Source: Planctomycetota bacterium (GTDB lineage: Bacteria; Planctomycetota; Phycisphaerae; UBA1845). Taken from it: a stretch of 64,000 nucleotides of DNA. This document shows, one piece after another, positions 46,881 through 64,000 of this stretch. The translations under genes were made by a program, and so were the position numbers. Under the pieces are notes generated by a model. It was given only the letters and a program-made list of their open reading frames with translations, was not told the origin of the DNA and made no database searches. Every line of letters begins with the position of its first letter. Positions within the stretch are counted from its first letter, which is position 1. The DNA lies in NCBI GenBank assembly GCA_024276605.1, contig JAJRWX010000008.1, positions 1-64,000 of the forward strand, in the 5' to 3' direction.

Positions 46881-49532
46881 CTATTCCAGTTCTACGAGCC
46901 AAATATCGGATTCGAGCGTGCTCATGGAGAAATATATCTCTCGGTCTCCTGGGGCTATGGATATGAAGCGAAAGGAAAACGTCGAACCTGACAGAAGCTC
47001 GGAGATTTTTTTGGACTCCGTATCACCAAGCAACAACTTTCCTTGACCTACAAAAATGAACCGTCGACTGTCGCTGAGCCACCGTGGACCGCCGCCGTTG
47101 TCGGTAATTAATTCGTACGTGCCTGTATCAAGCGTATAGGTTCCTATGCCTAAGTAACTACCATCCTTAGTAGAGAGAGCGCCCAGCAACTTCGTGCCAT
47201 CGGGGGACCACGAGGAAGCGAAGAAGTCAGTGTTGCCATCTTCAGCGGGTGATAACAATTGTATGGTTTGGTTGTCCTCGTGCTGGGCTAGGTTGGCAAT
47301 CTGCGCTTGGATTGGCTCCGTGCGTATGAAGGCGATGCGGGTTCCGTCCGGTGACCAAACAGGCAAATTGAGATTTTCTGTACTATCTATCAGTTTCTGC
47401 AAGCCGCTGCCGTCGCTGTTAATGGACCAAATGCCATATTGGCCGTCTCGGTCGGAAAAAAATGCGATCTGTTGGCTATCAGGTGACCAGCGAGGTCCGC
47501 GATCCTTGTATTGGTCATAGGTAAGTCGAAAGCGATCGTGGCCATCGGTATTGAAGATGAAGAGGTCTTCCTGAACGCCCCTGGACATGACGACGATTTT
47601 CTTACCATCAGGCGAGATGTCAGGTTGTCCCAGGATGGTCGATTGATGAGTGACTTGGATCGGTTCACCGAGTACTTTCTCAGTCTCAGGGTCGAAAATC
47701 ACCTTGAAAATATTCGCTCGGTACTCAATGGCTGCATAAGCGAGGTGTTTTCCGTCGTTGGCGATGCTTATATACATGCTCATGGCCGTTACGCCCGACG
47801 TGATGGCCTCTGGTTCGCCCAATCGCTCACCGGATAGCTCGTCGATGCGCACGCGCCAAATGTTCATGTTTCCGCCGCGATCGCTACCAAAATATAGGTA
47901 GCGTCCGTCAGGTGACCAGGTTGGGTTCCAATCGGTGGCTGGGTCATTGGTTACGGCTACAGGGTCGCCGCCGCTGACTGGGATTGTGAAAAGGTCGCGT
48001 TGCCCGCCTTTGATAAGCGTCCAGTAGGCAATGCGATGACCGCCGGGTGAACAGCTTGGCTCAACGGCGTCACCGTCGTAAATTTTCTTCGTTTCGCCGG
48101 TCGCTACAACAACGGACCAGAGCGCGCTGAGTCCTGACCGCGCTTCCGGTGATACGATTCCTACTGTGGCGAAATAGACGTGCGTGCCATCAGGGTGCCA
48201 CGCCGGGTTGTACCCGAAATCCGTCAGGCGTCGTGGCGATTCTCCTGTGGCACCCATCACAAATAATCCGCCGCCCTGACGTTCAGATCGGAAGACGATC
48301 TGTTGTCCGTCCGGTGAGAAGACGGGCATTGAATCGATTTCTGTGTACTTTTCAGTCAGGTTGACCGAGTTGGAACCGCCTATACGCATGGTGTAGATGT
48401 CGAAGTTTCCGTTTTCATCTGAAGAATAGACGATCGATTTGCCGTCTGGTGAAATGTCTGGACCCACTTCTGCGCTTATCTGGTCGGTGAGCTTGGAAAA
48501 CTTAGCGCTAAATTTCTTGGGCACGATTGGCGTTGTTTGCTTGGCTGCGAACCAACCGGAGTATGCGGCAGCTAGGAGGATTAGTATGCATACTGTGGCA
48601 GCGGCAAAACGCGCTGGCCAGGTTCGAGGCATAGTGCGCTGAGTGGCTTCTATCGCTTCGGTCGACCATTCGCGCGTGGTAAGTGATTGGTCCAATTCCA
48701 ATAATGCGTCGCCTATGTCACGTAATCGACGCTTGCTATGTTTTTCGAGGCAACGGCGCAACAGGTCGCCTACGCGGCGCGGTGTTCGATCGGGTAGCGC
48801 GTCGTAGTCTGGATCGCGCTCCATGATTTTAGCGATTACGTCCGTGGTGGTTTCACCGGAAAAGGGTGAAGTTCCGGTCAGACATTCATAAAGCACCGCT
48901 CCGAAACTCCAGATGTCGGTTCGCTTGTCTAGCGGACGTCCACGCGCTTGTTCCGGACTCATGTAGGCAGCGGTTCCAAGCACGACACCCGGGCGGGTGT
49001 AATTAGCTGTAATTGTCGGAGAGTTAGCGTCCACCGCGCTGGTAGATTCCTCAGCCATGGCTTTCGCCAATCCGAAGTCGAGCACTTTGACGGTGCCATC
49101 CTCGCGGACCATCACGTTGGCCGGCTTGAGATCACGATGAATGATGCCCTTTTCATGAGCCGCTTCCAACGCCTCAGCCATTTGCTTGGCGATATCCAGC
49201 GCATCCTCGACGGCGAAAGCGCCTCCCTTAAGCCGTTGAGCCAACGTTTCACCTTCAACATATTCCATGATAAGGAACCGAATTCCATCTGCATCGTCGA
49301 ATCCGTGAATCGCAGCGATGTTGGGATGGTTCAAAGAGGCCAGCAATTTGGCTTCGCGCTCGAAGCGTGCGGTGCGCTCCACATCGCGCGTCATGGCCAG
49401 TGGGAGAACTTTGATGGCAACTTTTCGATCTAGCTTGAGATCATTGGCAAGATAGACCTCACCCATGCCACCCGCGCCGAGGGGTGAGAGGATTTCGTAG
49501 GGACCGAGTTTCGTGCCGGATGATAGTGTCAT
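46881..49532 (-). CDS. Membrane Ser/Thr protein kinase with WD40/TolB-like propeller
   Basis: An 883-residue receptor-like kinase, last gene of the array. The kinase domain (about residues 10-270) has a Gly loop GAGGMGEVY, Lys41 in VAIKVLP, catalytic Asp134 in [11 protein letters not shown] and Asp152 in DFGLAKA. A membrane helix (FAAATVCILILLAAAYSGWFA, about 307-327) leads to an extracytoplasmic beta-propeller of about nine PD40-type blades, each with a WSPDG-like phrase (YSSDENGNFDIY, FGSDRGGNMNIW, FFSDRDGQYGIW). The propeller may sense a ligand or envelope state and the kinase phosphorylate unknown targets. Its ATG overlaps the stop of the upstream 1,899-residue kinase gene (ATGA). Confidence 0.92.
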   Translation of the reverse strand: MTLSSGTKLGPYEILSPLGAGGMGEVYLANDLKLDRKVAIKVLPLAMTRDVERTARFEREAKLLASLNHPNIAAIHGFDDADGIRFLIMEYVEGETLAQRLKGGAFAVEDALDIAKQMAEALEAAHEKGIIHRDLKPANVMVREDGTVKVLDFGLAKAMAEESTSAVDANSPTITANYTRPGVVLGTAAYMSPEQARGRPLDKRTDIWSFGAVLYECLTGTSPFSGETTTDVIAKIMERDPDYDALPDRTPRRVGDLLRRCLEKHSKRRLRDIGDALLELDQSLTTREWSTEAIEATQRTMPRTWPARFAAATVCILILLAAAYSGWFAAKQTTPIVPKKFSAKFSKLTDQISAEVGPDISPDGKSIVYSSDENGNFDIYTMRIGGSNSVNLTEKYTEIDSMPVFSPDGQQIVFRSERQGGGLFVMGATGESPRRLTDFGYNPAWHPDGTHVYFATVGIVSPEARSGLSALWSVVVATGETKKIYDGDAVEPSCSPGGHRIAYWTLIKGGQRDLFTIPVSGGDPVAVTNDPATDWNPTWSPDGRYLYFGSDRGGNMNIWRVRIDELSGERLGEPEAITSGVTAMSMYISIANDGKHLAYAAIEYRANIFKVIFDPETEKVLGEPIQVTHQSTILGQPDISPDGKKIVVMSRGVQEDLFIFNTDGHDRFRLTYDQYKDRGPRWSPDSQQIAFFSDRDGQYGIWSINSDGSGLQKLIDSTENLNLPVWSPDGTRIAFIRTEPIQAQIANLAQHEDNQTIQLLSPAEDGNTDFFASSWSPDGTKLLGALSTKDGSYLGIGTYTLDTGTYELITDNGGGPRWLSDSRRFIFVGQGKLLLGDTESKKISELLSGSTFSFRFISIAPGDREIYFSMSTLESDIWLVELE

Positions 49533-52500
49533 GGCTGCGGCTGCACTTCCTTGGTTCTGTTTTTTGCGGCGATACGTTTTAGCAGGTCCGCGTAGCGCGG
49601 ATCGCCGCGCAGGTTATCGTAGGGGAAGTAGATAGCAATTCTGTCGAGCAGTGGACTTCCCCGCCTAATGGCACGGTCAAGCGACTCGAAGGCACGGTCT
49701 TTCTCGTTGCACCAGGCATAAAATGGCGCTCGCCTTGCTGGTCCGATGCCCCATGAATCAAAGTCGTTCCCCAATGAATCCAACCATTCCAGAAAACCCG
49801 CCCGCAGGCCCGATGCGTCGTATGTGCGGCGGAACTTCGTGATGGACTCGGCTGGTTGATCAATGATCCGTAGGTATGATTCGAACGCCGTAGCTGCTGC
49901 GTTGTGGTTTTCCTTCCCAATGTACGCCCATGCCAGACTTACATACGCGACCTTGAAATCCGATTGTAGGCGCAGCGCCTCGTTGAGTTGCTCGATGGCC
50001 TTGTCGAAGCGCCGCGCCATCACGGAACCATCACCGTATTCATTGTGCATGACGGCGGACAGGGGGTCGAGTGCGATGGCCTTCTCATATTCTTCGGCCG
50101 CTAGGTCGTATCGTTCTTGGAGCGAGAGCGTACCACCGTACCATTGGTGCGCCGTGGCGTTGTTAGGATCGATTGCGATAGCCTTTTGGTAATGTGCGTT
50201 GGCTGTTTCGCAATCACCGCGATCTGCGAGAACGCTTGCCATCGAGACATGTGCTTCTGCCAGCGAGTCATTGAGCGCGAGCGCTCGCTCGGCAGCCTTC
50301 CTGGCTTCAGCATTTATCTTGTTGTAGGGGCCGGGGACGTAGTATGGCATCACGCCCCACGCGTCCGCGAGACCGCAATAGGCGAGTGCGTAGTTGGGGT
50401 CTAGCTCGATGGCATGCTTGAAATGCTTGATGGCCGTGTGCAGCGACTCCGGCGTTCGCTTGGTCCAGTAACTCCTTCCGAGCAGGTAAGCATCATACGC
50501 AGCTGAGTTTGTGGTCGGGGTCGTCGTTTCAGCATGTTCATCTTGAGGCAACAGTTCCACCGCCAGCGCCTTAGCCACAGCTTCGGCAACCTCAGCCTGA
50601 ACCGCAAAAACATCAGATAGATCGCGCGTATAACTATCTCCCCAGAGTTGTGTCTGATCGCTGACTTGAATGAGTTGGGCATTTATTCGAACACGATTAC
50701 CCGCACGGCGAACGCCACCTTCGATTACGTATGCTACACTGAGTTCTCGACCGATCTGGTCAATTAGTTTGTCAGTTTTCTTGTACCGCATGGCCGATGT
50801 TCGGGCGATTACACCAAGCAGTTCGGGACGCAGGCGACCGAGACGTGTGATCATTTCCTCGGTCATGCCGTCGCTGAAATACTCCTGCTCAGGATCGCCG
50901 CTGAGATTGGTAAACGGAAGAACGGCCAGCATGGTCTTCGTTTTCTGCTCACTTGCTGTCGAAACCGAATTGGCAGCAGGTACAAGTCCCATCCGTCGAA
51001 GCAAATCATCGTAACGCGGGTCGCCATGCATCACGTCAAACGCTCTACCTAAGTGAAAATACGATAACAAGAGTTCGCGGTTTTCGTACGACTTATCCAG
51101 CCAACGAAACGCTTCGTCCACATTCCCCAAGCTCGCGTGAATGGAAGCGAAAGCCAAGGCTGGAACATAGTCATGCTTCGCTAGCTGCGTGAGAGTCTTC
51201 AGTTCGTCCCGAGCTTCCGTGATCTGCCCGGCTTGTGCGTAGGCAACTCCCAGCAAACCGGCCATCATGGGAATGCGTCCTTCTGACGCGTACAGCTCCT
51301 TGAGAACGGGGATCGCACGCTCAGGTTGGCTACCCTTTATGAGCATTATCGCTAGCTCCATTCTTGCAGGAAAGAAATCTGGAGCCATCTCCCGCGTAGC
51401 CGCGTTGTGGGTAAGCGCTTCGCGAACATCACCTGCGAGGAATTGCACTTTGGCGAGGCCCGCTCGGATGATCAGAGAATTTGGTGCGATCTCGTTCGCC
51501 CGTTTCATCGCGGAGAGTGATTCGTCAAACCGGCTCTGTACAAGGAGAATCATGCCGAGCCAGTGATGGAGCGTGGCATAACGAGGGTTTAGGGAAATGC
51601 CGCGTTGAATAGCTTCTTCGGCCTTGCGCCATTTATGCTCAGCCATGCCGGTCAAGTAACCGAGTGATGCGTATGCTTCCGCCATGGAATCGTCGAGATG
51701 AAGCGCCGTCTTGATCGCCTGCTTCGCCAGCGGTATCAGTTTCTCTGACGGGCGGTAATAGAGGGCAAGCATTAGGTAACAATCCGCTTTGCCTGCGTAG
51801 GCTCGTGCGTACTGGGGATCAAGTGAAATGGCGTGATCGAAGAGTCTGATCGCACGGTCGAAGCCGTCCTCTGACCGCCGATTCCACCAGAACCGAGCCT
51901 CGATGTAAGCCCGGTACGCCTCGGGGTTCATCGTGTCGTCCTTGGCAAGTTTTGTTTTTTCCTCTCGGGTAAGCTGGAGTCGTAGCGCTTCCGAGATATT
52001 CTGTGTGATGTTCGCTTCAACGGCCATGATGTCCGTCAATTCACGGTCGTACCGATGGCTCCAGAGTTGCTGGTTCGTGGCTACGTCCACCAATTCTGCA
52101 CGGATGGTCAAACTGTTTCCGCGTGCGTTTAACTGCCCGGTCAGTACAACCGATGCGCTGAGACTCTTCCCGAAGCTACTTGCATCCTCTTTGGTCGCAT
52201 CAAAGCGAAATGCACCGCTTCGCGAGATCACGCTCAAACCTGACAGCTCGGACATCTTGTCGATGATGCTGGCCGGTATTTCATTGCTGAGGTAGTCGGT
52301 ATCCGGATCACTGCTGATATTTTGGAACGGAAGCACGGCGAGAGTTGTATTGTTTGAAAGCGGTTTGGCGGTCGATGCAGACGTTGGCTCTGGCTTAAAC
52401 CCATGTTGGCGCATCAAGCTCTTGTAGCGCGGGTGATCGCGAAGAGCATCCCAGCGCGGATCAAGACGAAGCATCGGAACCGACATCGTCTGACTCGGAA

Positions 52501-55228
52501 TAGAAAGCAAGTATTCGAGTTTGTCCAGGGCTAAGTTGTACTCGCCAACGAGCGCATAGATGAAAGCTAAGTCCTCTTCACGAGAGGGACCGATCATGGC
52601 GTCCTTGGACACGGGATACAGCATTACGCCTAGTTTCCCTTCGCGGATGGCGTCCTCCTTACGCCCAAGTCCGGCATAAGCGATTCCAAGCGAGCTGCGG
52701 ACGCGATGATCGTCGGGACGTTTCTTGGCTTCCTCTTCCAGGAGCATACGGGCGGTGTCGTAAGCTTGACGGGATCGCTCCGATTCACCCATCAGTCCAT
52801 GTACGAGGCCAGCTAACCGAGCCGTGGGGATGAGCCAAAACTGATTGGCAAAAGATTCGTTCGGAGTGGACTCAAGACGATCCAAAGCGGGCTGGTATTC
52901 TCTTTCCAAAAACTCCTGCTGGAACCAAGTAAAGATCGAATCTGGCGTTTGCTTGACGAGCATATCCTCAAGCGTGGCACGGGCCACGTCGGTATCGCCA
53001 TGCCAAAGCCGATACAAAGCCGCCTTATACTCAAAAGCTACTTGTTGATCCGGAGCCAAGGAAATGGAGTCGTTGCACCAACGCTCCGCTTCCGGATATT
53101 TCCGCAGAAAGAGATAGGTCTCGGCGATGTCGTTGGCCAAATAGGCGCTAAGTGGGCTTAGTTCAAAGGCACGTTTGAGATAGCGTGTTGCCTCTTCAAG
53201 CTTGCCCTGCCGCCGCCGGATGTAGCCAATACCCTCGACTATTCGGCTGTCGTTCGGGAGATCCTTTTGGGCGATATTAAACGTTTCTATCGCCCGCTCG
53301 TAATTCCGATGGCACCAATAGTGATACCAACCGAGCGCGACGTATGCTTCAGGGAGACTCGGTTGAAGCTTGAATGCACGGTCCACTGCCGATTTGGCTT
53401 TGGCCGCACGATTTTCCGTAGAGTCATGCCCAAAATGGTGCATGGCTGAGTGAGACTTAGAAAGCTGCGCATACGCGAGGGCGAAGCTGGGATCAAGCGA
53501 AACCGCACGCTCGAACATCTGGATCGCCAGTCGATACTGCTCCTCCGAATAATCGGGCTGTTCCAAGTAAACGAGTCCGCGCAGGTAGGCGTGATAAGCA
53601 TCGGAGTTTTCAGTTGGTTTTACTTCGATCACCCGGCGTTCCGGCTCCAGTAACGTAATCTGAAGCTGTTTCAGCACCTGCGCGGCTATGTCGGATTGAA
53701 CCTCAAAAATATCTTCTAGCTGGCGGTCGTAAGGCTGAGACCAGACCGACATGTCGTCAGCAATACGGATCAGCTCCGGCGTAATGCGTACCCGGCCTGC
53801 CGCCTCGCCGCGTTTATCCCAGCGAATCGTGCCATCGATGAGGTAATCCACCCCCAATTCAGAACCGATCTGTCTGTTTGTCTTATCCGTATCTTTGAAT
53901 TGAAACGCGCTGGAGCGGGAAATCACGCCGAGCCTTCGAACTTTCGCCAACCGCCCCCGAATTTCATCGCTGATTCCGTCAGAGAAATACTCATCATCAG
54001 GCGATCCAAGGTTCTTGAATGGCAACACCGCCAGCGTGATCGGGGCATCTGCCGATTGCTCGGAGGGTCGCAAAGAATCTTCCGTTGATGGTGTGGCTGT
54101 TGATCCACTCCTTGCTATGCCGGAGTCATGTGACGTCTCTCCCACCACGGCTACTTTATTCGCGATACTACCGTCTCGGCCAAGCCACCACGCTCCGGCT
54201 CCAATCGCTACGATGACGGCAATAACCCCAATCCAAAACTCGCCGCGACGGGTCGGGGCGGACATCGAAGAACCTGAAACCGAGGTGGATGAAGTCGAAG
54301 ACGGAGGCGGCGAAACGGTAGTTTGTATAGTTACGGGTTGAGATTCCGACAGTTCGCTACCGGAATCGACTTCCTTCAACAGCGCCTGCAAATCATTGCG
54401 AATGTCTTTCGCTGATTGCATACGTTGCTCTGGATCTTTTGCGAGACAGCGTTCAATGATTCGACCTAGATGCCGAGGCAGCACGCCGTTGAGTTCTTGC
54501 ACCGGGCGCGGCGTGTCACGAAGAATTGAAGACGTTATAATAGCCGAGGTCTTCCCTTTGAACGGACGCTGCCCGGTCGCCAATTCGTATAGCATGATGC
54601 CAAGCGAGAAGAGATCGGATCGGTGGTCTAAGTCTTCCCCGTTGAGCTGCTCGGGCGACATATACGGCACAGTGCCCATGACCACGCCTCGACCTGTAAG
54701 CGGTGCGGACATGGTTACGTCATCTGGTGCCGAGCCACCCTGCCCCTCGATTGTCAGCTTGGCAAGACCGAAGTCGAGCACCTTGACGCGACCATCCTTG
54801 GTCACCATGACGTTGGCGGGTTTGAGGTCGCGGTGAACGATGCCCTTGTCATGGGCAGCGGCTAAGGCATCCGCCAGCGGAATGGCGATATCAAAAATCT
54901 TCTCGAGCGGCATACCGGCCGGAGCAATCATGCGGTCAAGCGTTTCGCCCTCGACGAGTTCCATGGCGATGAAGCGGTGGCCATCTGATTCTTCGATGCC
55001 AAAAATCGTAACGATGTTGGGATGGTTGAGGGCCGCCACCGTGGTCGCTTCTCGTTCAAAACGTTGAAGACGTTCCGGACTTGACGAAACGTCGGCTGGC
55101 AAGACCTTAATCGCAACTTCACGGTGGAGCTTGGTATCCTTCGCAAGATACACTTCACCCATGCCACCAGCGCCCAGGGGCGACAGGATTTCGTAGGGAC
55201 CAAGTTTTGTTCCGGTGGCGAGGGTCAT
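49529..55228 (-). CDS. Giant Ser/Thr kinase with three tandem LAVLPF-TPR modules
   Basis: A 1,899-residue protein. I chose the ATG at 55228, preceded by GGAGGA and overlapping the upstream stop; a longer frame would overlap the neighbour. The kinase domain has Lys41, Asp134 ([11 protein letters not shown]) and Asp152 (DFGLAK). A membrane helix follows ([20 protein letters not shown], about 330-350). Then three modules occur at about residues 398, 963 and 1432. Each begins with LAVLPF and a [10 protein letters not shown]-like or [10 protein letters not shown]-like segment plus a SRSSAF/SRSGAF/ARTSAM strand, and continues with tetratricopeptide repeats ([57 protein letters not shown]). The LAVLPF part resembles domains linked to adenylate cyclases and TPR regulators. 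It replaces the propeller of its neighbours. Confidence 0.9.
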
Positions 55229-57927
55229 CGATTCCTCCGTTCGGCCAGCCAGTTGACGATGACGTGGATGGGTGACGCGGCCACGTTCGATATCGGTACG
55301 GTAACGAGAAAACGCTCGCCATCCGACGCGACGTCGTACCGCCAACAATCTCCGACCCTACGGGCTTCGAACAACTTCTTGGTGGCGCCGATCGTGAATC
55401 CCGATTCTTCGAAAGAAATATCGGTAGCGTTGAGCCAATCCTCGGGGTCGAAGAAGTACAGTTCCGCACCGTCCGATCGCCATCGCGGTTCAGTTCCGCC
55501 GCGCGTGGAGACCTGCCATTCACCGGCGCGATCTGGAAAGGTCGCAACATACACTTCGTTCTGTCCGGAACGATTCGACACGAACGTGACGAATTTCCCA
55601 TCGGGCGAAAACTGCCCGAAAAATTCGTCCACCGGTGAGTCTGCGAAGGGCTCGGGTTTCTTATCCTCGCCGAGCTTGAGAACCAAAATATCCTGGCGGC
55701 TCTCCATAGACAGGGGCTCGAACAGGATGAGCGTGCCGTCCGGAGAAAAGCTACGCGGTTGGACATAGTCGCCGGGCCCATCCAGCAACGTCTCGGCAAC
55801 GCCCCTGCCAAGTGCGGGCTTGCGAAACAGATAGTTGGTACGTCCAGACAGAGTTCCATAGACGACGTGCGTGCCATCCGGGGACCAGATGGCACCATAT
55901 GAACTCGCGGGTTTTCCGTGCATGCGTCCGAAGGTGAAGCGGACCTGCATGTCACGGGCTAGGTCGCGTATCCATACATCCTCATTGCCTGTGTCTAAGT
56001 TCTGGATCGAAAAGAGAACCCTGGCGTCATCCGGTGAGAGTTCCGGACCTGATAGGTTTTGGTAGTATTCCGGCACGCCGACCTCGCCGAGCCGCTTCCC
56101 GCTTCGGTAGATCCATGTTAACAGTCCGAGCGAAGAGGCCTCCCCGGTTTGGTAAGCAATCGTACCGTTTTGGGACGCAGAAAAGATGGCGAGACTAAAT
56201 CGATTATCAACCAGTAGATCGTCTGCGATGGGAAAAGCATCACCGACTATGGCGAGTCGATCCATGTCGAACTGGACAGCCATCAGGGTTTGTTGCCGAG
56301 CGAATAGAATGTGTCCCGAGGCGTAGGTTACCGTCGAGGCGGCTTGTAGAATCGTCCGTCGCTCGGTGGAATCGAGCGAGGCAAGAACGATGGCAGGTTC
56401 GGTCCCAGTCCCGACACCGGCCCGGCGTGCCAGATACAGGAAATGCCGTCCGTCCGGCAGGAAGCTGGGGTACCTATGCGTGCTTTCTACGCCGGCGTCA
56501 TCGAGTCTCGTGACCACCGCCACCGGACCTCCCGATGCCGACACACGCGACAATCCGCCATTCCAGATAGGCGCGAAGACGATGGTGCCCTCCTGATTCC
56601 AAGTTCCCCCGCGAGACTCGGTCACATCGGCCAGCGATAAGGTTGGGCCGCCATCGGCGTCGATGGTCAGTAGTTTCCGGTTAGCGAAGAATCCGAGCTT
56701 GCGTCCGTCGGGAGACCAAAACAATCGTTCGGCGTCCTCGGTCCCGGCTAACGGCACCGCGTCAAACTTGTCCAAAGATCTGATCCAAATACGCTGGCGA
56801 CCATTCCCCGTTCTCGCCACGAATGCCATCCGCGTTCCGTCCGGCGACAACACGACGGGGCCGGCGTGCTCATCAATCGAGACCAACGTGGTACCTTCCG
56901 GCGGAAGTACGTTCATGCGGTAGGTGCGCGCGTCCTCATCCGTCGTACGCAAGTTCCACACACCTAGCGTGACGGAAAGAACGACGCCAACGATGGCCAA
57001 ACTCCACGCGGTTTTCTCTCTACCACGCCGATTCGATGCAGCCACGGCTGGCACACCGAGTTGCGATCCTCCCTCGGCGATCCATTGCAGTTGAAGCTTC
57101 ACGTCGTGGGCGGTTTGAATGCGATCTTCCGGGTTCTTCGCTAAGCAGCTGCGAACAAGATGTTCGAGCGCGGGCGGGGTCATCGGCTGAATCTCCGAAA
57201 TCGCCCTTGGCTGAGACGACATGATCGACGCGATCAAGCTCGCGCGACTACCGCCCTCGAACGCTCGTTGGCCAGTGGCCATTTCATAGAGCACGGCGCC
57301 GAACGCGAAAATGTCAGTTCGTGGGTCAGCCTCCTTGCCTTCGAGTTGTTCGGGGGCCATATACTGGAAAGTGCCAACGATAGTCCCCTTGCCGGTCAGC
57401 GGCTCAGTAATGGTCACGGCATCCGGTGCTGTCGAAAGCCCTGATTGTCCAGGCGTGGCCTTGGCCAGACCAAAATCGAGGAGCTTGGCCCCGGACTTGG
57501 TGAGCATGATATTGCCCGGCTTGAGGTCGCGGTGGACTACGCCCGCCCGGTGGGCTTTGTCCAGGGCCGACGCTATCTCCGCGCCAATCCGAAGCAAGTC
57601 TTCAAGCGGAAGCGCCCCCTTGGCGACTCGCAGCGAAAGCGTCTCGCCTTCGATGAGTTCCATCACCAGATAATCAACGCCACTATCATGCCCAATATCG
57701 TGCAGCGTGCAGATGTTTGGGTGGGTCAGGCTCGATATCGCCTTAGCCTCACGCTCAAACCGCTGCTTTAACTCAGCGTTACCTGTCAGGTGGCTCGGAA
57801 GAACCTTGATGGCCACGTCCCGCTCCAGGCGGGTATCTTTTGCTCGATAGACCTCACCCATGCCGCCTGCTCCGAGGGGCGAGAGGATTTCGTAGGGACC
57901 AAGTTTCGTTCCTTCTGTCAGCATCAA
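55225..57927 (-). CDS. Membrane Ser/Thr protein kinase with WD40/TolB-like propeller
   Basis: A 900-residue paralogue of the same design: kinase domain with Lys41 in VAIKVLP, catalytic Asp134 in VHRDLKPGNIM and Asp151 in LDFGLAKA, a membrane helix (TAWSLAIVGVVLSVTLGVWNL, about 305-325) and a propeller with blades such as VVLSPDGTRMAFVARTGNGRQRIW, FWSPDGRKLGFFAN, YLSF-like SYGAIWSPDGTHVVYG and FSPDGKFVTFVSNRSGQNEVY. It has the propeller's usual end (VIVNWLAERR). Both ends overlap neighbours by ATGA. The ligand and substrates are unknown. Confidence 0.92.
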   Translation of the reverse strand: MMLTEGTKLGPYEILSPLGAGGMGEVYRAKDTRLERDVAIKVLPSHLTGNAELKQRFEREAKAISSLTHPNICTLHDIGHDSGVDYLVMELIEGETLSLRVAKGALPLEDLLRIGAEIASALDKAHRAGVVHRDLKPGNIMLTKSGAKLLDFGLAKATPGQSGLSTAPDAVTITEPLTGKGTIVGTFQYMAPEQLEGKEADPRTDIFAFGAVLYEMATGQRAFEGGSRASLIASIMSSQPRAISEIQPMTPPALEHLVRSCLAKNPEDRIQTAHDVKLQLQWIAEGGSQLGVPAVAASNRRGREKTAWSLAIVGVVLSVTLGVWNLRTTDEDARTYRMNVLPPEGTTLVSIDEHAGPVVLSPDGTRMAFVARTGNGRQRIWIRSLDKFDAVPLAGTEDAERLFWSPDGRKLGFFANRKLLTIDADGGPTLSLADVTESRGGTWNQEGTIVFAPIWNGGLSRVSASGGPVAVVTRLDDAGVESTHRYPSFLPDGRHFLYLARRAGVGTGTEPAIVLASLDSTERRTILQAASTVTYASGHILFARQQTLMAVQFDMDRLAIVGDAFPIADDLLVDNRFSLAIFSASQNGTIAYQTGEASSLGLLTWIYRSGKRLGEVGVPEYYQNLSGPELSPDDARVLFSIQNLDTGNEDVWIRDLARDMQVRFTFGRMHGKPASSYGAIWSPDGTHVVYGTLSGRTNYLFRKPALGRGVAETLLDGPGDYVQPRSFSPDGTLILFEPLSMESRQDILVLKLGEDKKPEPFADSPVDEFFGQFSPDGKFVTFVSNRSGQNEVYVATFPDRAGEWQVSTRGGTEPRWRSDGAELYFFDPEDWLNATDISFEESGFTIGATKKLFEARRVGDCWRYDVASDGERFLVTVPISNVAASPIHVIVNWLAERRNR

Positions 57928-60647
57928 CGCTCCTTCACGGCTGCCATCTTTTCTCTTAGCTCTTTGAACCAGTTCACCACAACGATCGGGTGGCTCCGCT
58001 GGTCTCCGACAATATCTGATGATCTCGCAAAAAGGAAACGCTGTCCGTCCGGAGCCACGTCGAAGAATTCTGAATACTCGTCGTCTAGTAGCTTGAACAT
58101 GAGCTTGGGCGTGCCTGGAATCAGCACATCGTCTTTCACCGCGATGGCTACCGAGTAATACGCGCCGCTGAAATTCGTGTAGAAGAGTTCAGTGCCGTCC
58201 GGTGACCACTTTGGAACGCCCCCCAAACCGGGAGAAATTTTGACTCTACCAGTGCCCGAGGGAAAGCGCCGGACGTACACCTCGTCGATTCCCGTCTCAT
58301 TGGAGTAATATGCGATGAGCGTTCCATCCGGCGAAACAGAAGGGGACTGCTCGGCGAACGGCGTTGTCAGAAACGGCTCCACCGTCCGCTCCTTATCCAT
58401 GTGGAGCAACATGATCTCGAGGCCGGACTGAAGAGACTCATTAATCACGAGCGTGTGCCCGTCGGGAGAGATAGCCGCCGGAAACTGGGCGTTTTCCGCT
58501 GTGGTCAGCTTCTCCGCGTCGCCGCTCCCGTCGGCCCTCCTGCGGTAAATCTCCGCAACGCCATGAACGCGATCAGAATTAAAATATATCCACGAGCCGT
58601 CGGGCGACCAGACCGGAAACATTTCCACGCCATCGTCGAAGGTCAGCCGGGTCAACATGTCACGCTTGATTTCCAACAACCAGATGTCCGGTGGGAACCT
58701 GGTACCGCTGCGCAAGACCCACGCAATCTGTGAGCCATCCGGCGACAGGGATTGGGAGAGCGCCACTCGGGAATGTTGCGACGCGGGCGTGATCTTGCCC
58801 GTACGATCTACCCAGACCAAATCAGTAAGACGTGGACCCTGGTTGTCCAATAGGTAAACAAGCACGCCGTTGTCCGAAAATGAGTATTGCCCGGTGCCCA
58901 TGGACGTGTTCGATGCCAGGTTCTCCAGCACCGGAATCTCCGGACCGATGATCTCGACGTTCACCGGATCAAACGCGATGGACATGAGCACATCACCTCG
59001 CACGAAGACCAGGTGTCCGGTGGGGACGTAACGCGCGAACATCGCACCCTCGATCAGTGTCTTGCGCTGTCGCGTGTCCAGTGACACGGCTTGGATTCTC
59101 GCGCCCGTGTAGTCGTCTTCGTTGTCCGTATCGGTGAATAGTATCGTCCGTCCGTCCGGCAAGAGTTGGGGCCAGCGGTGTGACTTGGGACCTGGGTCAG
59201 GCCCCAAGTCGGTGACTTTTTCTGGCTTTCCACCTTCGGCTGAAACTATCCAGATGCCGGATCGGCGAGTCGGGGCAAACGCGATGGTGTCATTTACACC
59301 CCAGTGAGCACCGCGGAGTTGCGGGGCATCGCAGATCGTCTGAGCAGGGCCGCCCGAGACAGATATTTTCTTAAGTTTTCCCTGCTGGGCGAAGGCGATC
59401 CAGCGACCATCGGGCGAAAAAGTGGGCGAGTCCGTGTCGTTCGTGTTGGCAAGGGCTACAGCATCTTGCTGATGCATGTGTCGCAGATACAACTGCGTTC
59501 CGGTATTGGTGGTGGCCGTGTAAGCCAACATCGATGCATCAGGTGAAATAGCGGCGACCGGTTCCATGAGGTTGATGGTGAGCACCTGACCTTCGGGAAT
59601 CTCCACCGAGAGACGGACAACCGGCAACGAGTCTTTGGGCAGCGGTTTTGCGAACCATACGCCGACAGCGGTGAGTACGACGATCATCGCGATCGCCACA
59701 TTAACTGGCCATGATGGTAGCCAGCGAGTTTTTACATCGAGGGCGGCTTGTGCCAATCCGAGCGAGGTGCTTGTCGGGTCTGCGATTGCGTTCTCTAGTT
59801 CTATTCTTGCGTCACCGATGTCTCGGAGTCGTTTGGTTGCGTCTTTGGCTAGGCAGCGGCGGAGAAGTAGGTGTACTGTTGGCGGGGTGTCACCTGGGAG
59901 GGTGGTCCAGTCTGGGTCTTTGTGAAGGATCGCGCCGATGGAATCGCTGATGGTCTCGCCACCGAATAGCGTTCTTCCGGTAAGACATTCGATGAGCACA
60001 ACACCGAAGGACCAGATGTCTGTTCGCTTGTCTAGCGGTTTGCCGCGCGATTGTTCGGGACTCATGTAGGCGGCGGTGCCCATGATGATGCCTGGGGCTG
60101 TTGGCGATGCGCCGATTGTTATGGTCGGGGAGTTTGCGATTTCAGTTCCAGTACGCTCGTCGATGGTGGCCATAGCTTTTGCTAGTCCGAAGTCGAGAAC
60201 TTTAATTTTTCCATCGGGCGTTAGTTTTACGTTCGCTGGTTTTAGGTCTCGATGGATGATTGCTTTGTCGTGGGCAGCTTCTAGTGCTTCTGCCATTTGT
60301 TTGCCGACGGAGAGCGCTTCTTCAACGGGCATGAGTCCTTGTTTGATTCGCTCGGCTAGCGTGTCGCCTTCTACGAGTTCCATGACGAGGAAGTTTTTCT
60401 CGTTTGCCTCTTCAAAGCCGTAGATGGCAGCGATGTTTGGGTGGTTGAGGGAGGCGAGGACTTTCGCCTCGCGCTCAAAGCGTGCCAGTCGTTCCGGGTC
60501 GCGTGAGAAGGCTTTGGGGAGGACTTTTATGGCGACTTCTCGGTCGAGACGAGAGTCCTTGGCTCGGTAGACTTCTCCCATGCCGCCCGCACCAAGGGGA
60601 GAGAGGATTTCGTAAGGACCGAGTTTTGTGCCATTCTTGATCGCCAT
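57924..60647 (-). CDS. Membrane Ser/Thr protein kinase with WD40/TolB-like propeller
   Basis: A 907-residue paralogue. Lys41 lies in VAIKVLP, catalytic Asp134 in [11 protein letters not shown] and Asp152 in LDFGLAKA. A membrane helix (WPVNVAIAMIVVLTAVGVWFA, about 318-338) precedes a propeller with LAYTATTNTGTQLYLRHM, FAPTRRSGIWIVSAEGG, WSPDGSWIYFNSDRVHGVAEIY, YYSNETGIDEVYVRRFPSG and the end VVVNWFKELREK. The start codon is 12 bases after the upstream kinase stop, the only junction in the array without overlap. The TGA overlaps the next ATG. The function is presumably sensing plus phosphorylation. Confidence 0.92.
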   Translation of the reverse strand: MAIKNGTKLGPYEILSPLGAGGMGEVYRAKDSRLDREVAIKVLPKAFSRDPERLARFEREAKVLASLNHPNIAAIYGFEEANEKNFLVMELVEGDTLAERIKQGLMPVEEALSVGKQMAEALEAAHDKAIIHRDLKPANVKLTPDGKIKVLDFGLAKAMATIDERTGTEIANSPTITIGASPTAPGIIMGTAAYMSPEQSRGKPLDKRTDIWSFGVVLIECLTGRTLFGGETISDSIGAILHKDPDWTTLPGDTPPTVHLLLRRCLAKDATKRLRDIGDARIELENAIADPTSTSLGLAQAALDVKTRWLPSWPVNVAIAMIVVLTAVGVWFAKPLPKDSLPVVRLSVEIPEGQVLTINLMEPVAAISPDASMLAYTATTNTGTQLYLRHMHQQDAVALANTNDTDSPTFSPDGRWIAFAQQGKLKKISVSGGPAQTICDAPQLRGAHWGVNDTIAFAPTRRSGIWIVSAEGGKPEKVTDLGPDPGPKSHRWPQLLPDGRTILFTDTDNEDDYTGARIQAVSLDTRQRKTLIEGAMFARYVPTGHLVFVRGDVLMSIAFDPVNVEIIGPEIPVLENLASNTSMGTGQYSFSDNGVLVYLLDNQGPRLTDLVWVDRTGKITPASQHSRVALSQSLSPDGSQIAWVLRSGTRFPPDIWLLEIKRDMLTRLTFDDGVEMFPVWSPDGSWIYFNSDRVHGVAEIYRRRADGSGDAEKLTTAENAQFPAAISPDGHTLVINESLQSGLEIMLLHMDKERTVEPFLTTPFAEQSPSVSPDGTLIAYYSNETGIDEVYVRRFPSGTGRVKISPGLGGVPKWSPDGTELFYTNFSGAYYSVAIAVKDDVLIPGTPKLMFKLLDDEYSEFFDVAPDGQRFLFARSSDIVGDQRSHPIVVVNWFKELREKMAAVKER

Positions 60648-60659
60648 GCGTTCTCTCGT

Positions 60660-63416
60660 TTATTTGTGGGGCACAAGCGCTTCCAGTTCCGTCGTCCAGT
60701 TCAGCACGATGATTGGCTCGCGGCGGGCTGCGGTTGCTGCTGTTCCGACGTCGCTTATGAATAGGAAATGTTTTCCGTCCTTTGTCAGATCGAAGTAGTG
60801 ATCGTAGCGGTTGGTGTCGGGAAGCGAGAAGAGTTCTTCGGGCGCCGACGGCGCTAGGACGTTTTCGTCGACGGTGTACTTGACAGACATCATCGTGAGA
60901 TTGTTGGGGTCGGCGCTGACATAGTAGATCATGTTTTCTGTGGGCGACCAATGTAAGTGTGTGCCCCCTGCGGTTGATATCTGCACGGCCGAGCCTGAGC
61001 CGTCTGATGGATGAACGAGAATCTCCGAGCGACCTGATTCGTGGGAAGCGTATCCGATCCACTTTCCATCCGGAGAGTAATGGGCACCCCACTGCCAACT
61101 TGGCCCGTCAAGAACCGCTACGGGTTCGCCGTCGACCACCCCCTTTTGGTCGAATTGAAGTTGATGGACATCGCCCTCTGTGGTTGGAGCGACTTCCAGG
61201 AACAACAAGCTCAGACCATCAGGGGCAAAGCTCGTAGGCAACTGCATGTGCTTGCTCTCAGTAAGTCGCTCAACCTCGCCGGAAAAATCGGCCCGTATGC
61301 GGTAGAGATTTGGTGCGCCGCCGTGCCGGCGGGACGCGAAGACGATCCACTTTCCGTCTGGGCTCCATACAGGGGCGAAATCACTATCGGTTGACGGTAG
61401 CATTCGCATTAGGTCCCGCGAGCGCTCCAGAACCCCGATCCGACTTTCGGATCCCTCTCCGATCTCGATCGCCACAAGATGCCCATCTGGGGAGAATACG
61501 GCGTCGTTAAACTCTCCGGTCTGTGCGCCGAGAGGTTCTTCTTTCCCGGAATGATCAATCATGACCATTTGGCGGTCTGTATAGGGGTTGTCTGCCATGT
61601 ACATGAGCGTTCCGTGATTGTCTATGGAGATAGCTGAAATCCAGCCCGCGCCACCGGCGATGCCTTCCACGACTGGTACTGCTTCACTGGTTAGCTCGAG
61701 GCGATCCAGATCAAAGCGAGCGGCCATCAATGTGTTCTCGCGTATGAATACGATGAATCCTGGCGATACGTATTGCCCGTTGCTGGCCGCCTTAATTAAC
61801 TCTTTCAGTACGCCGCCTGCGCCAGACACGACCATGACATACGCGTCGTCCATAGCGGCGAAGTCCCTTGCCTTTGTGAACAACACGCCGCGCCCCTCGG
61901 GAAGGGCAAACGGTATGCGATGCGACTCGAAAGGGTCCGCCCCGCTGGTTGCGGTAAAGGGCTTTGGTGTTCCACCGGACGCGGGAATGCTCATAAGTCC
62001 ACCGCTGTTTTGGGGCGCGAAGATGATCGCTCCTTCCGCGGTCCAAGTGCCGCCGCGCATCGTGGGCGCGTCGCATAGCGTAATCGGCGAGCCACCGCGC
62101 ATGGAGATCTTTTTCAGCTTGTCGTCTTTTACGAAAGCCAACCACTCACCATTTGGGGAGAAGAACGGTGCGTGTAAGAAACTTATTCCGGCCAGAGAGC
62201 GGAACTCAGGCTGATCCATGGTACGTACGATCATGCCGATCTCATCGCTGAGCATGGTCTTCGCTTTGAACACAGCGTATTGACCGCCGGGTGAGAGTGT
62301 TGGGAACGGCCATCTGCTCAACTTGTATTGCGGCGGAATCGACATGGTGAGTCGAGCGACGCGCCTGACCGGGATGGGCGTTAGGAGCCAAGTCGATGCT
62401 GCGCCAATGGCGGCGAATACTAGGGCTGCCCCGATGACCCATCGCCATGGGATACGCCCCCGCGGCAAGTCCAAGGCCACGGCAGCCAAACCGAGGGACG
62501 TGCTGTTTGGGTCAATCAGGGCGTTCTCAAGTTCGATTCGTGCATCGGCAATATCGTGCAGTCTTCGTTTGCGGTCTTTTGTTAGGCAGCGACGAAGAAG
62601 GAGCTGAATCGTCGGTGGGGTATGGGGTGGTAGTAACGACCACTCCGGGTCTTTGTGCATGATCGCACCCATCGAGTCGTTGGCTGTTTCACCTTGAAAC
62701 AACCGATGCCCGGTCAGGCATTCAAACAACAAGATCCCGAACGACCAGATGTCGGTTCGTTTGTCTAGTGCTCGACCACGCGCCTGCTCGGGACTCATGT
62801 ACGCGGCGGTTCCAAGCACAACACCTGGACGAGTGAAGTTTGCGGTGATCGTTGGCGAGTTGGCGTCAGCCCCTCCTGATGGATCATCAGACATCGCTTT
62901 GGCTAAACCGAAGTCGAGAACTTTGACCACACCATCCGGGCGTATCATCACGTTGGCGGGCTTGAGATCGCGATGGATCACGCCTTGACCATGAGCGGCT
63001 TCGAGCGCCTCGGCGATTTGCTTCGCGATATCAAGCGCGTCCTCGACTGCGACGGGTCCGTTCTTGAGATGACCACCGAGCGTCTCACCTTCGACGAGTT
63101 CCATGACGATGAAGTGTAGGGCGGGCTTCGCCCGCCTTTGCACATCGGAATCTTCGGCGGGCGAAGCCCGCCCTACGGTTTCAAATCCGTAGATAGCGGC
63201 AATATTTGGATGATTCAGCGAAGCGAGCAGCTTGGCTTCCCGCTGGAAGCGGGCGATTCGCTCTTTGTCTCGAGTCATCACCTCGGGCAGCACCTTGATC
63301 GCAACTCTTCGATCAAGCTTGGCATCGTTGGCAAGATAGACCTCACCCATGCCGCCCGCCCCGAGGGGAGAGAGGATTTCGTAGGGACCGAGCTTGGTTC
63401 CTGTGGCGAGGGTCAT
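60660..63416 (-). CDS. Membrane Ser/Thr protein kinase with in-frame palindromic insertion
   Basis: A 918-residue paralogue. Gly loop GAGGMGEVY, Lys41, catalytic [10 protein letters not shown] and DFGLAKA are intact. The kinase domain carries an extra segment at residues 81-101 (VGRASPAEDSDVQRRAKPAL), encoded by a palindromic DNA element, between the GF segment of the N-lobe and the HFIVMELVEG hinge. Neighbouring paralogues are 16 residues shorter here. A membrane helix (WRWVIGAALVFAAIGAASTWLL, about 330-351) and a propeller (GQYAVFKAKTM, FVKDDKLKKISM, WSPDGKWIVFASRRHGG, YSPDGKWIGYASHESGRSEI) follow. The frame stays open through the insertion, so the protein may still fold. Confidence 0.92.
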   Translation of the reverse strand: MTLATGTKLGPYEILSPLGAGGMGEVYLANDAKLDRRVAIKVLPEVMTRDKERIARFQREAKLLASLNHPNIAAIYGFETVGRASPAEDSDVQRRAKPALHFIVMELVEGETLGGHLKNGPVAVEDALDIAKQIAEALEAAHGQGVIHRDLKPANVMIRPDGVVKVLDFGLAKAMSDDPSGGADANSPTITANFTRPGVVLGTAAYMSPEQARGRALDKRTDIWSFGILLFECLTGHRLFQGETANDSMGAIMHKDPEWSLLPPHTPPTIQLLLRRCLTKDRKRRLHDIADARIELENALIDPNSTSLGLAAVALDLPRGRIPWRWVIGAALVFAAIGAASTWLLTPIPVRRVARLTMSIPPQYKLSRWPFPTLSPGGQYAVFKAKTMLSDEIGMIVRTMDQPEFRSLAGISFLHAPFFSPNGEWLAFVKDDKLKKISMRGGSPITLCDAPTMRGGTWTAEGAIIFAPQNSGGLMSIPASGGTPKPFTATSGADPFESHRIPFALPEGRGVLFTKARDFAAMDDAYVMVVSGAGGVLKELIKAASNGQYVSPGFIVFIRENTLMAARFDLDRLELTSEAVPVVEGIAGGAGWISAISIDNHGTLMYMADNPYTDRQMVMIDHSGKEEPLGAQTGEFNDAVFSPDGHLVAIEIGEGSESRIGVLERSRDLMRMLPSTDSDFAPVWSPDGKWIVFASRRHGGAPNLYRIRADFSGEVERLTESKHMQLPTSFAPDGLSLLFLEVAPTTEGDVHQLQFDQKGVVDGEPVAVLDGPSWQWGAHYSPDGKWIGYASHESGRSEILVHPSDGSGSAVQISTAGGTHLHWSPTENMIYYVSADPNNLTMMSVKYTVDENVLAPSAPEELFSLPDTNRYDHYFDLTKDGKHFLFISDVGTAATAARREPIIVLNWTTELEALVPHK
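63116..63176. repeat. Palindromic element inserted in frame in a kinase gene
   Basis: Two perfect 21-base inverted arms (63116-63136 and 63156-63176) flank 19 bases. Each arm itself is nearly palindromic, with a GGGC-TTC-GCCC core. The element encodes residues 81-101 of the 60660-63416 kinase and is absent from the paralogues in this window. Confidence 0.85.
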
Positions 63417-64000
63417 TGTTTCGCTCCGACAGGCACCTTAGCCTTGAGTTCCTCAAACCAGTTTAATATCACTTCGACGTGCGTTGGCTTTGCTTCTTCC
63501 GGTCCCTTATGAATCATTAGCAGTCTGCCTCCCGGGAGCGTTGAGAAATCATAGGCGATTAGCAAATTGGATTCGAGATCAACGGCAACGCGTGGCGTGG
63601 ATGTCGGTCTTCCCTCGGTCGTGTCAATATCCATGACCATGAGTTCTTTTGATTTCAAGTAGTAGATCAGCTTGCCATCTGGCGACCAGCGAGGACGTCC
63701 GCCGCCTTGGGTGGTCGCAGGGATCGCTTTGCCGAGTGAGCCGTCTGCGCTGAATGATCGAATGTATATCTCGTTGCGGCCCGATTCATTGGAGCCATAG
63801 GCGAGCCATTTCCCGTCAAACGAGAGGTCGGCTCCGTCGGTGTCATAGGAGTCTCCCAGAAGCGGCTCGAGAGAGACTACCTTTGCGTCCGCGTCGTTTA
63901 GTCGTAGAAGTTGAAGCGATTTACTTCCGGAAATCGATTGTTCCACGATGAGCAAGCTGTCGTCAGGAGAGAAAGCGTGTGGTTTCAAGAACCCACGTCC
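63413..64000 (-). CDS. Kinase-array propeller protein, C-terminal part (5' truncated)
   Basis: The frame is open to the window edge; 195 residues are visible. They form the end of a PD40/TolB-like propeller: FSPDDSLLIVEQ, GADLSFDGKWLAYGSNESGRNEIYIRSFS, WSPDGKLIYYLKSKELMVMDI and the standard closing VILNWFEELKAKV. The kinase domain presumably lies beyond the right edge. The stop overlaps the next kinase ATG by four bases, so the array continues upstream. All family-level claims for the missing part are inference. Confidence 0.85.
   Translation of the reverse strand, partial: GRGFLKPHAFSPDDSLLIVEQSISGSKSLQLLRLNDADAKVVSLEPLLGDSYDTDGADLSFDGKWLAYGSNESGRNEIYIRSFSADGSLGKAIPATTQGGGRPRWSPDGKLIYYLKSKELMVMDIDTTEGRPTSTPRVAVDLESNLLIAYDFSTLPGGRLLMIHKGPEEAKPTHVEVILNWFEELKAKVPVGAKQ

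Follow-up and report, generated by a model that had tools for sequence, protein, structure and literature searches.

An in-frame, head-to-head pair of GTAG-type REP palindromes in the predicted β4-β5 loop of a PknB-like kinase from a Planctomycetota bacterium

Within a gene for a PknB-like Ser/Thr kinase, two GTAG-type REP sequences lie head to head and in frame at the predicted β4-β5 loop of the kinase domain. We consider, with a probability of about 0.8, that this pair is a tolerated selfish insertion, most likely with native loop codons enclosed between its two arms. REPs are selfish palindromes of small size, presumably mobilised by RAYT (REP-associated tyrosine) transposases. The gene is carried by a stretch of 64,000 nt (the window) belonging to a genome of 4.5 Mb in 110 contigs.

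Results

A perfect palindrome is translated within an intact kinase gene

The kinase gene and the parts of the palindrome are located in the window as follows.

60660-63416, minus strand: host gene, intact, 918 codons, for a Hanks-type (PknB-like) Ser/Thr kinase with a C-terminal WD40/TolB-like propeller (ORF, domain matches and Foldseek)
63156-63176, minus strand: REP arm 1 in gene sense, GTAGGGCGGGCTTCGCCCGCC, translated V81-GRASPA87; GTA tag, 7-bp stem GGCGGGC and 3-nt loop TTC
63137-63155, minus strand: spacer GAAGATTCCGATGTGCAAA, codons 88-93 (EDSDVQ), probably native β4-β5 loop codons, as judged by their fit to the native-loop profile; sole 19-nt spacer among 80 dimers
63116-63136, plus strand: REP arm 2, inverted copy, translated in gene sense RRAKPAL (residues 94-100)

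The protein was matched by the Pkinase (PF00069, 5.9e-50) and PD40 (7.3e-24) domains. The best Foldseek matches were M. tuberculosis PknB and PknA, with which the fold agrees. For the entire gene, the dN/dS ratio relative to the sister genome was 0.15, a value that indicates purifying selection and is silent on the history after the insertion.

The two 21-nt arms are 100% complementary and separated by 19 nt. As single-stranded DNA, the palindrome has a folding energy of -30.1 kcal/mol (z = -9), and the inverted doublet can form a long hairpin, as REPINs do. Within the window, no second copy of the arm was found at up to 3 mismatches, and shuffled sequences yielded none. The ORF is translated across the palindrome as ETVGRASPA-EDSDVQ-RRAKPAL. 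On the minus strand, one of the three frames of the element has a stop at the GTAG tag, and the kinase gene reads an open one. The first-pass annotation had described perfect 21-base inverted arms and a reading frame unbroken by them, and both statements hold. It had also described a 61-base insert: the element does span 61 nt, which is not a multiple of three, but the net gain over six-residue loops is 16 codons (48 nt), the middle 19 nt being probably native loop.

The insert is predicted in a surface loop of the N-lobe

The ordinary loop between the β4 motif GF and the β5 motif xF[LI]V has six residues, typically [DE][DE]SD[GA]x. This length was observed in 35 of the 42 distinct related kinase N-lobes; three have 10 residues and four, including the window kinase, have a long loop. 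The kinases with an ordinary loop carry no palindrome. In an AlphaFold2 model (small alignment, pTM 0.75), residues 83-96 have a pLDDT below 50 and lie between the strands 75-81 and 100-106. The model of the N-lobe that had been proposed as a check places the insert in a low-confidence loop between two strands, and the REP pair is predicted to occupy the β4-β5 surface loop.

Another long loop, of 25 residues, is found in a kinase of genome G068. It is not palindromic and has similar ends (ESV...AL-HF). It was rejected as a further insertion, since it contains no inverted repeat and a search of four genomes revealed no second copy. Long native loops thus exist, which makes the exact REP insertion points uncertain.

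The kinase domain is mosaic

Two further features of the window were used in the comparison with related genes.

62416-63400, minus strand: mosaic kinase-domain tract holding the REP pair, 74-93% identical in DNA to the sister genome, versus about 97% on both sides
57924-60647, minus strand: adjoining paralogous kinase with an ordinary six-residue loop (EEANEK), without the palindrome

From about 48400 to 64000, five or more related genes for kinase-propeller proteins stand in tandem on the minus strand of the window, in a cluster that extends past the window. The orthologue in the sister genome G002 is syntenic, 92% identical in amino acids and devoid of palindromes. However, it could not be taken as a clean empty site: relative to this genome, dS was 0.93 in the kinase domain versus 0.08 in the rest of the gene. 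As the kinase tract is recombined with respect to the sister genome, the comparison offers no clean pre-insertion allele. The expectation that paralogues and orthologues would lack the element is thus borne out for most paralogues and for this orthologue, but the latter is mosaic precisely here.

The segment located 3' of the insert is closest (82%) to the kinase L033 of another genus, g22. Judged from these sequences, the kinase domains of the cluster have evidently been exchanged by recombination, and the mosaic suggests gene conversion among the clustered paralogues. The insert could therefore have come with the recombined tract. The adjoining kinase is equally mosaic: in both 62416-63400 of the window and G000:C31:65416-66315, identity with the sister genome is about 80-90% for the kinase-domain DNA and about 97% for the propeller.

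The arms belong to a dispersed GTAG-type REP family

Each arm reads GTA[GGCGGGC-TTC-GCCCGCC], in which a GTAG tag leads into a 7-bp hairpin. The stem (GGCGGGC/GCCCGCC) and the TTC loop fall within the limits described for GTAG REPs (stem of 5-13 bp, loop of 2-20 nt). GTAG opens both arms, and pairing is possible between its last G and the C that closes the arm. The arms are inverted relative to one another with their GTAG ends outermost, which is the arrangement of the head-to-head GTAG REP dimers of Di Nocera et al. 2013 (PMC3733652), for which the name REPIN is also in use (PMC3116915). Genome-wide, 39 sites of the form GTAGGnCGGG(n)CCCGnC were found, and none with the reversed control; 22 sites lie within 3 mismatches of the arm. 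In the sister genomes G001 and G002, the same pattern occurs 7 and 0 times, respectively. On these sequence grounds, the feature of the kinase gene is a head-to-head GTAG-type REP pair. The exact arm occurs in 7 of 51 genomes of the family and, within its own genome, only at the kinase locus, a point that counts against our explanation. Only sub-threshold microRNA matches were returned by Rfam for the hairpin region, and these were discarded as artefacts.

REPINs are predominantly extragenic, whereas the kinase copy lies inside an ORF. The other GTAG-class copies examined in this genome are intergenic or directly precede a plausible start codon. The annotation had spoken of a mobile-looking palindrome that may belong to an intergenic repeat family able to enter genes, and had proposed a genome search for the arm and its intergenic copies. 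The search agrees with this view, with one locus for the exact arm and 39 class sites, those examined being outside genes or at their starts.

In the Phycisphaerae genomes G024 and G031, where 222 and 45 dimers were counted, GTAGGGCGGG REPINs of 57 nt are abundant and recognisably have spacers in common (164 in G024 and 44 in G031). A base rate for intragenic dimers was sought in the repeat-rich relatives. Of 67 dimers, 13 lay in reading frames that stay open for 60 residues or more on each side, but none of these counts as clearly intragenic; a Pfam scan of seven of the corresponding proteins gave domains on one side only, or none.

RAYT transposases are present in the genome

The genome encodes Y1 transposases, bona fide RAYTs among them. 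A RAYT gene at G000:C30:5384-5836 is flanked by related (sibling) GTAGGTCGGGC REPs, and the relatives G031, G021 and G065 have GTAGGGCGGG REPs on the flanks of their RAYT genes. RAYT genes bordered by GTAG repeats thus occur both in this genome and in these three relatives. None of the RAYTs examined in the genome and its relatives was flanked by the exact arm of the kinase locus. In G024, all matches of the RAYT search were below the family cut-off. The kinase-locus copy was presumably mobilised by a RAYT.

The RAYT L112 (G000:C3:32723-33172) was rejected as the cognate transposase: inspected by eye, its flanks show a longer and different palindrome (GTAGGGCAGGTC...; GTAGGGCAGGTCGTTCTTTCGCC...), suggesting a second REP type in the genome.

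The same loop carries an unrelated dimer in another genus

Two kinases of genus g22, L033 (G023:C120) and L172 (G023:C340), have 47 and 42 residues, respectively, in the same loop. Both loops contain, in frame, a different palindromic dimer tagged by CCGAG (CCGAGCCGCGGGCTTCAGCCCGCGCGA ... TCGCGCAGGCTGAAGCCTGCGGCTCAG), whose arms are partly decayed. The G023 genome has more than 110 matches per strand to the arm of this dimer at up to 3 mismatches. As the dimers of the window kinase and of the G023 kinases are different, two unrelated palindrome families have reached one loop in two genera. The L033 and L172 inserts are also alike in their spacers, and judging by this similarity they may go back to a single insertion event that was later duplicated or exchanged. 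The end of the ORF upstream of the L172 kinase encodes SSRRLRPPALVG, which resembles the palindrome-encoded SSRRLKPAAQAG; this is perhaps another copy, at a gene end.

The spacer fits the native loop

When EDSDVQ was scored against a profile of 18 native loops, an equal score was reached by 8 of 200,000 shuffles; with a profile of 26 loops, the three 10-residue loops included, it was reached by 1 of 300,000. EDSDVQ scored 10.8 with the native-loop profile, versus 3.4 for the highest-scoring 6-mer among the spacers, about 70 in number, of other REP dimers. At the DNA level, the match of the spacer to native loops is modest to weak (11/18). Since EDSDVQ fits the native loop and not the spacers of REP dimers, the arms probably bracket native codons. 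Read in this way, the gene has gained 27 nt before the spacer (the arm and two codons) and 21 nt behind it, each gain amounting to whole codons.

It might instead be proposed that a whole 61-nt REPIN moved as a unit, bringing its own spacer and displacing about four native codons, the likeness of EDSDVQ to the loop being due to chance or to later selection. In the relatives, dimers that share conserved spacers clearly move as units, as the 57-nt populations indicate; REPIN spacers are generally less conserved than the arms (PMC3116915), and the 7-mer GATGTGC is common to the kinase spacer and to a dimer of the same genome (C54). Yet the spacer showed no excess similarity to those of REP dimers: in an anchored alignment of its DNA with about 70 other dimer spacers, 600 of 2,000 shuffles were equally close, while its translation fits the native loop. 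Moreover, its length of 19 nt is unique among the 80 dimers, and removal of 61 nt would leave a frameshift. Movement of the whole unit is thus somewhat unlikely.

That the segment is simply ancient coding sequence from a class of kinases with long loops, palindromic by coincidence, is hardly credible. The G068 loop with its similar ends and the 10-residue loops of three relatives would be compatible with such an origin, but the 21-bp inverted repeat is perfect and folds with z = -9, each arm bears a GTAG tag, and the genomic family is dispersed and gave no control matches, all of which speaks strongly against it. Adoption of the insertion for a function, either as a flexible regulatory loop or as a hairpin tuning translation or mRNA stability, would be in line with the two paralogous G023 kinases, which keep in-frame dimer loops despite partly decayed arms and indicate that such loops can persist. 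But the peptide is not conserved between genera, and the model gives the loop low confidence, as expected for disorder; such a role is improbable. Most likely, the insertion serves no purpose and is a selfish palindrome that the host tolerates.

Discussion

According to the explanation that we prefer, a GTAG-type REP pair would have come to lie in frame in a permissive β4-β5 surface loop. The arms around EDSDVQ could result from two REP insertions, or from a single one later copied across by template switching. Three properties would account for the survival of the copy: two of the three frames of the repeat are open, whole codons were added, and the loop is tolerant. The added peptide would probably be a neutral disordered loop, as the structure model indicates.

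The entry of GTAG REPs into genes has been described by Di Nocera et al. 2013 (PMC3733652), who found them in the PVC superphylum in association with RAYTs and, occasionally, in frame within ORFs, where dimers or grouped repeats encode 20-30 residues. The kinase pair shares with these cases the GTAG tag, the short GC-rich stem-loop, the head-to-head dimer and the in-frame site. It differs from them by its PknB-like kinase host (the text of that study names mainly DNA-repair and RNA-processing genes), by a probably native coding spacer and by the second, unrelated family found elsewhere in the same loop. An in-frame GTAG REP dimer is thus an event of a type already described; what stands out here is the probable native origin of the spacer codons and the recurrence in one loop.

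REPINs (Bertels and Rainey 2011, PMC3116915) are extragenic units whose spacer travels along. Like them, the kinase pair consists of two inverted REPs forming a long hairpin in a genome with RAYTs, but its spacer resembles the host loop. The Rickettsia palindromic elements (RPE), to which the first-pass annotation had likened the insert, are also in-frame palindromes adding a peptide to a protein. This analogy stands, but the family itself is that of the GTAG REPs, already known to enter ORFs. Compared with the RPE by description only, the pair differs in its tag and host phylum, the nearest named relatives of the host genome being Planctomycetota/Phycisphaerae MAGs; RPE-4 and RPE-6 were placed by Di Nocera (PMC3733652) among intragenic CGTC repeats. 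In Nematomorpha mitochondria, perfect inverted repeats of up to 284 bp also occur within protein-coding genes (PMC6649704), but these are mitochondrial and, in the abstract of that report, are not described as REP or RAYT elements.

REPs are extragenic by name, and their entry into genes, their survival there and the unit that inserts (single REP or doublet) have been little studied. A doublet whose spacer apparently consists of host codons provides a test case for doublet formation. Finally, with three kinase loops entered by two families, it seems that selfish palindromes enlarge permissive loops repeatedly. Tentatively, REP arms laid on both sides of native codons, and one loop repeatedly hit by unrelated families, may be a source of recurrent loop extensions in bacterial signalling kinases.
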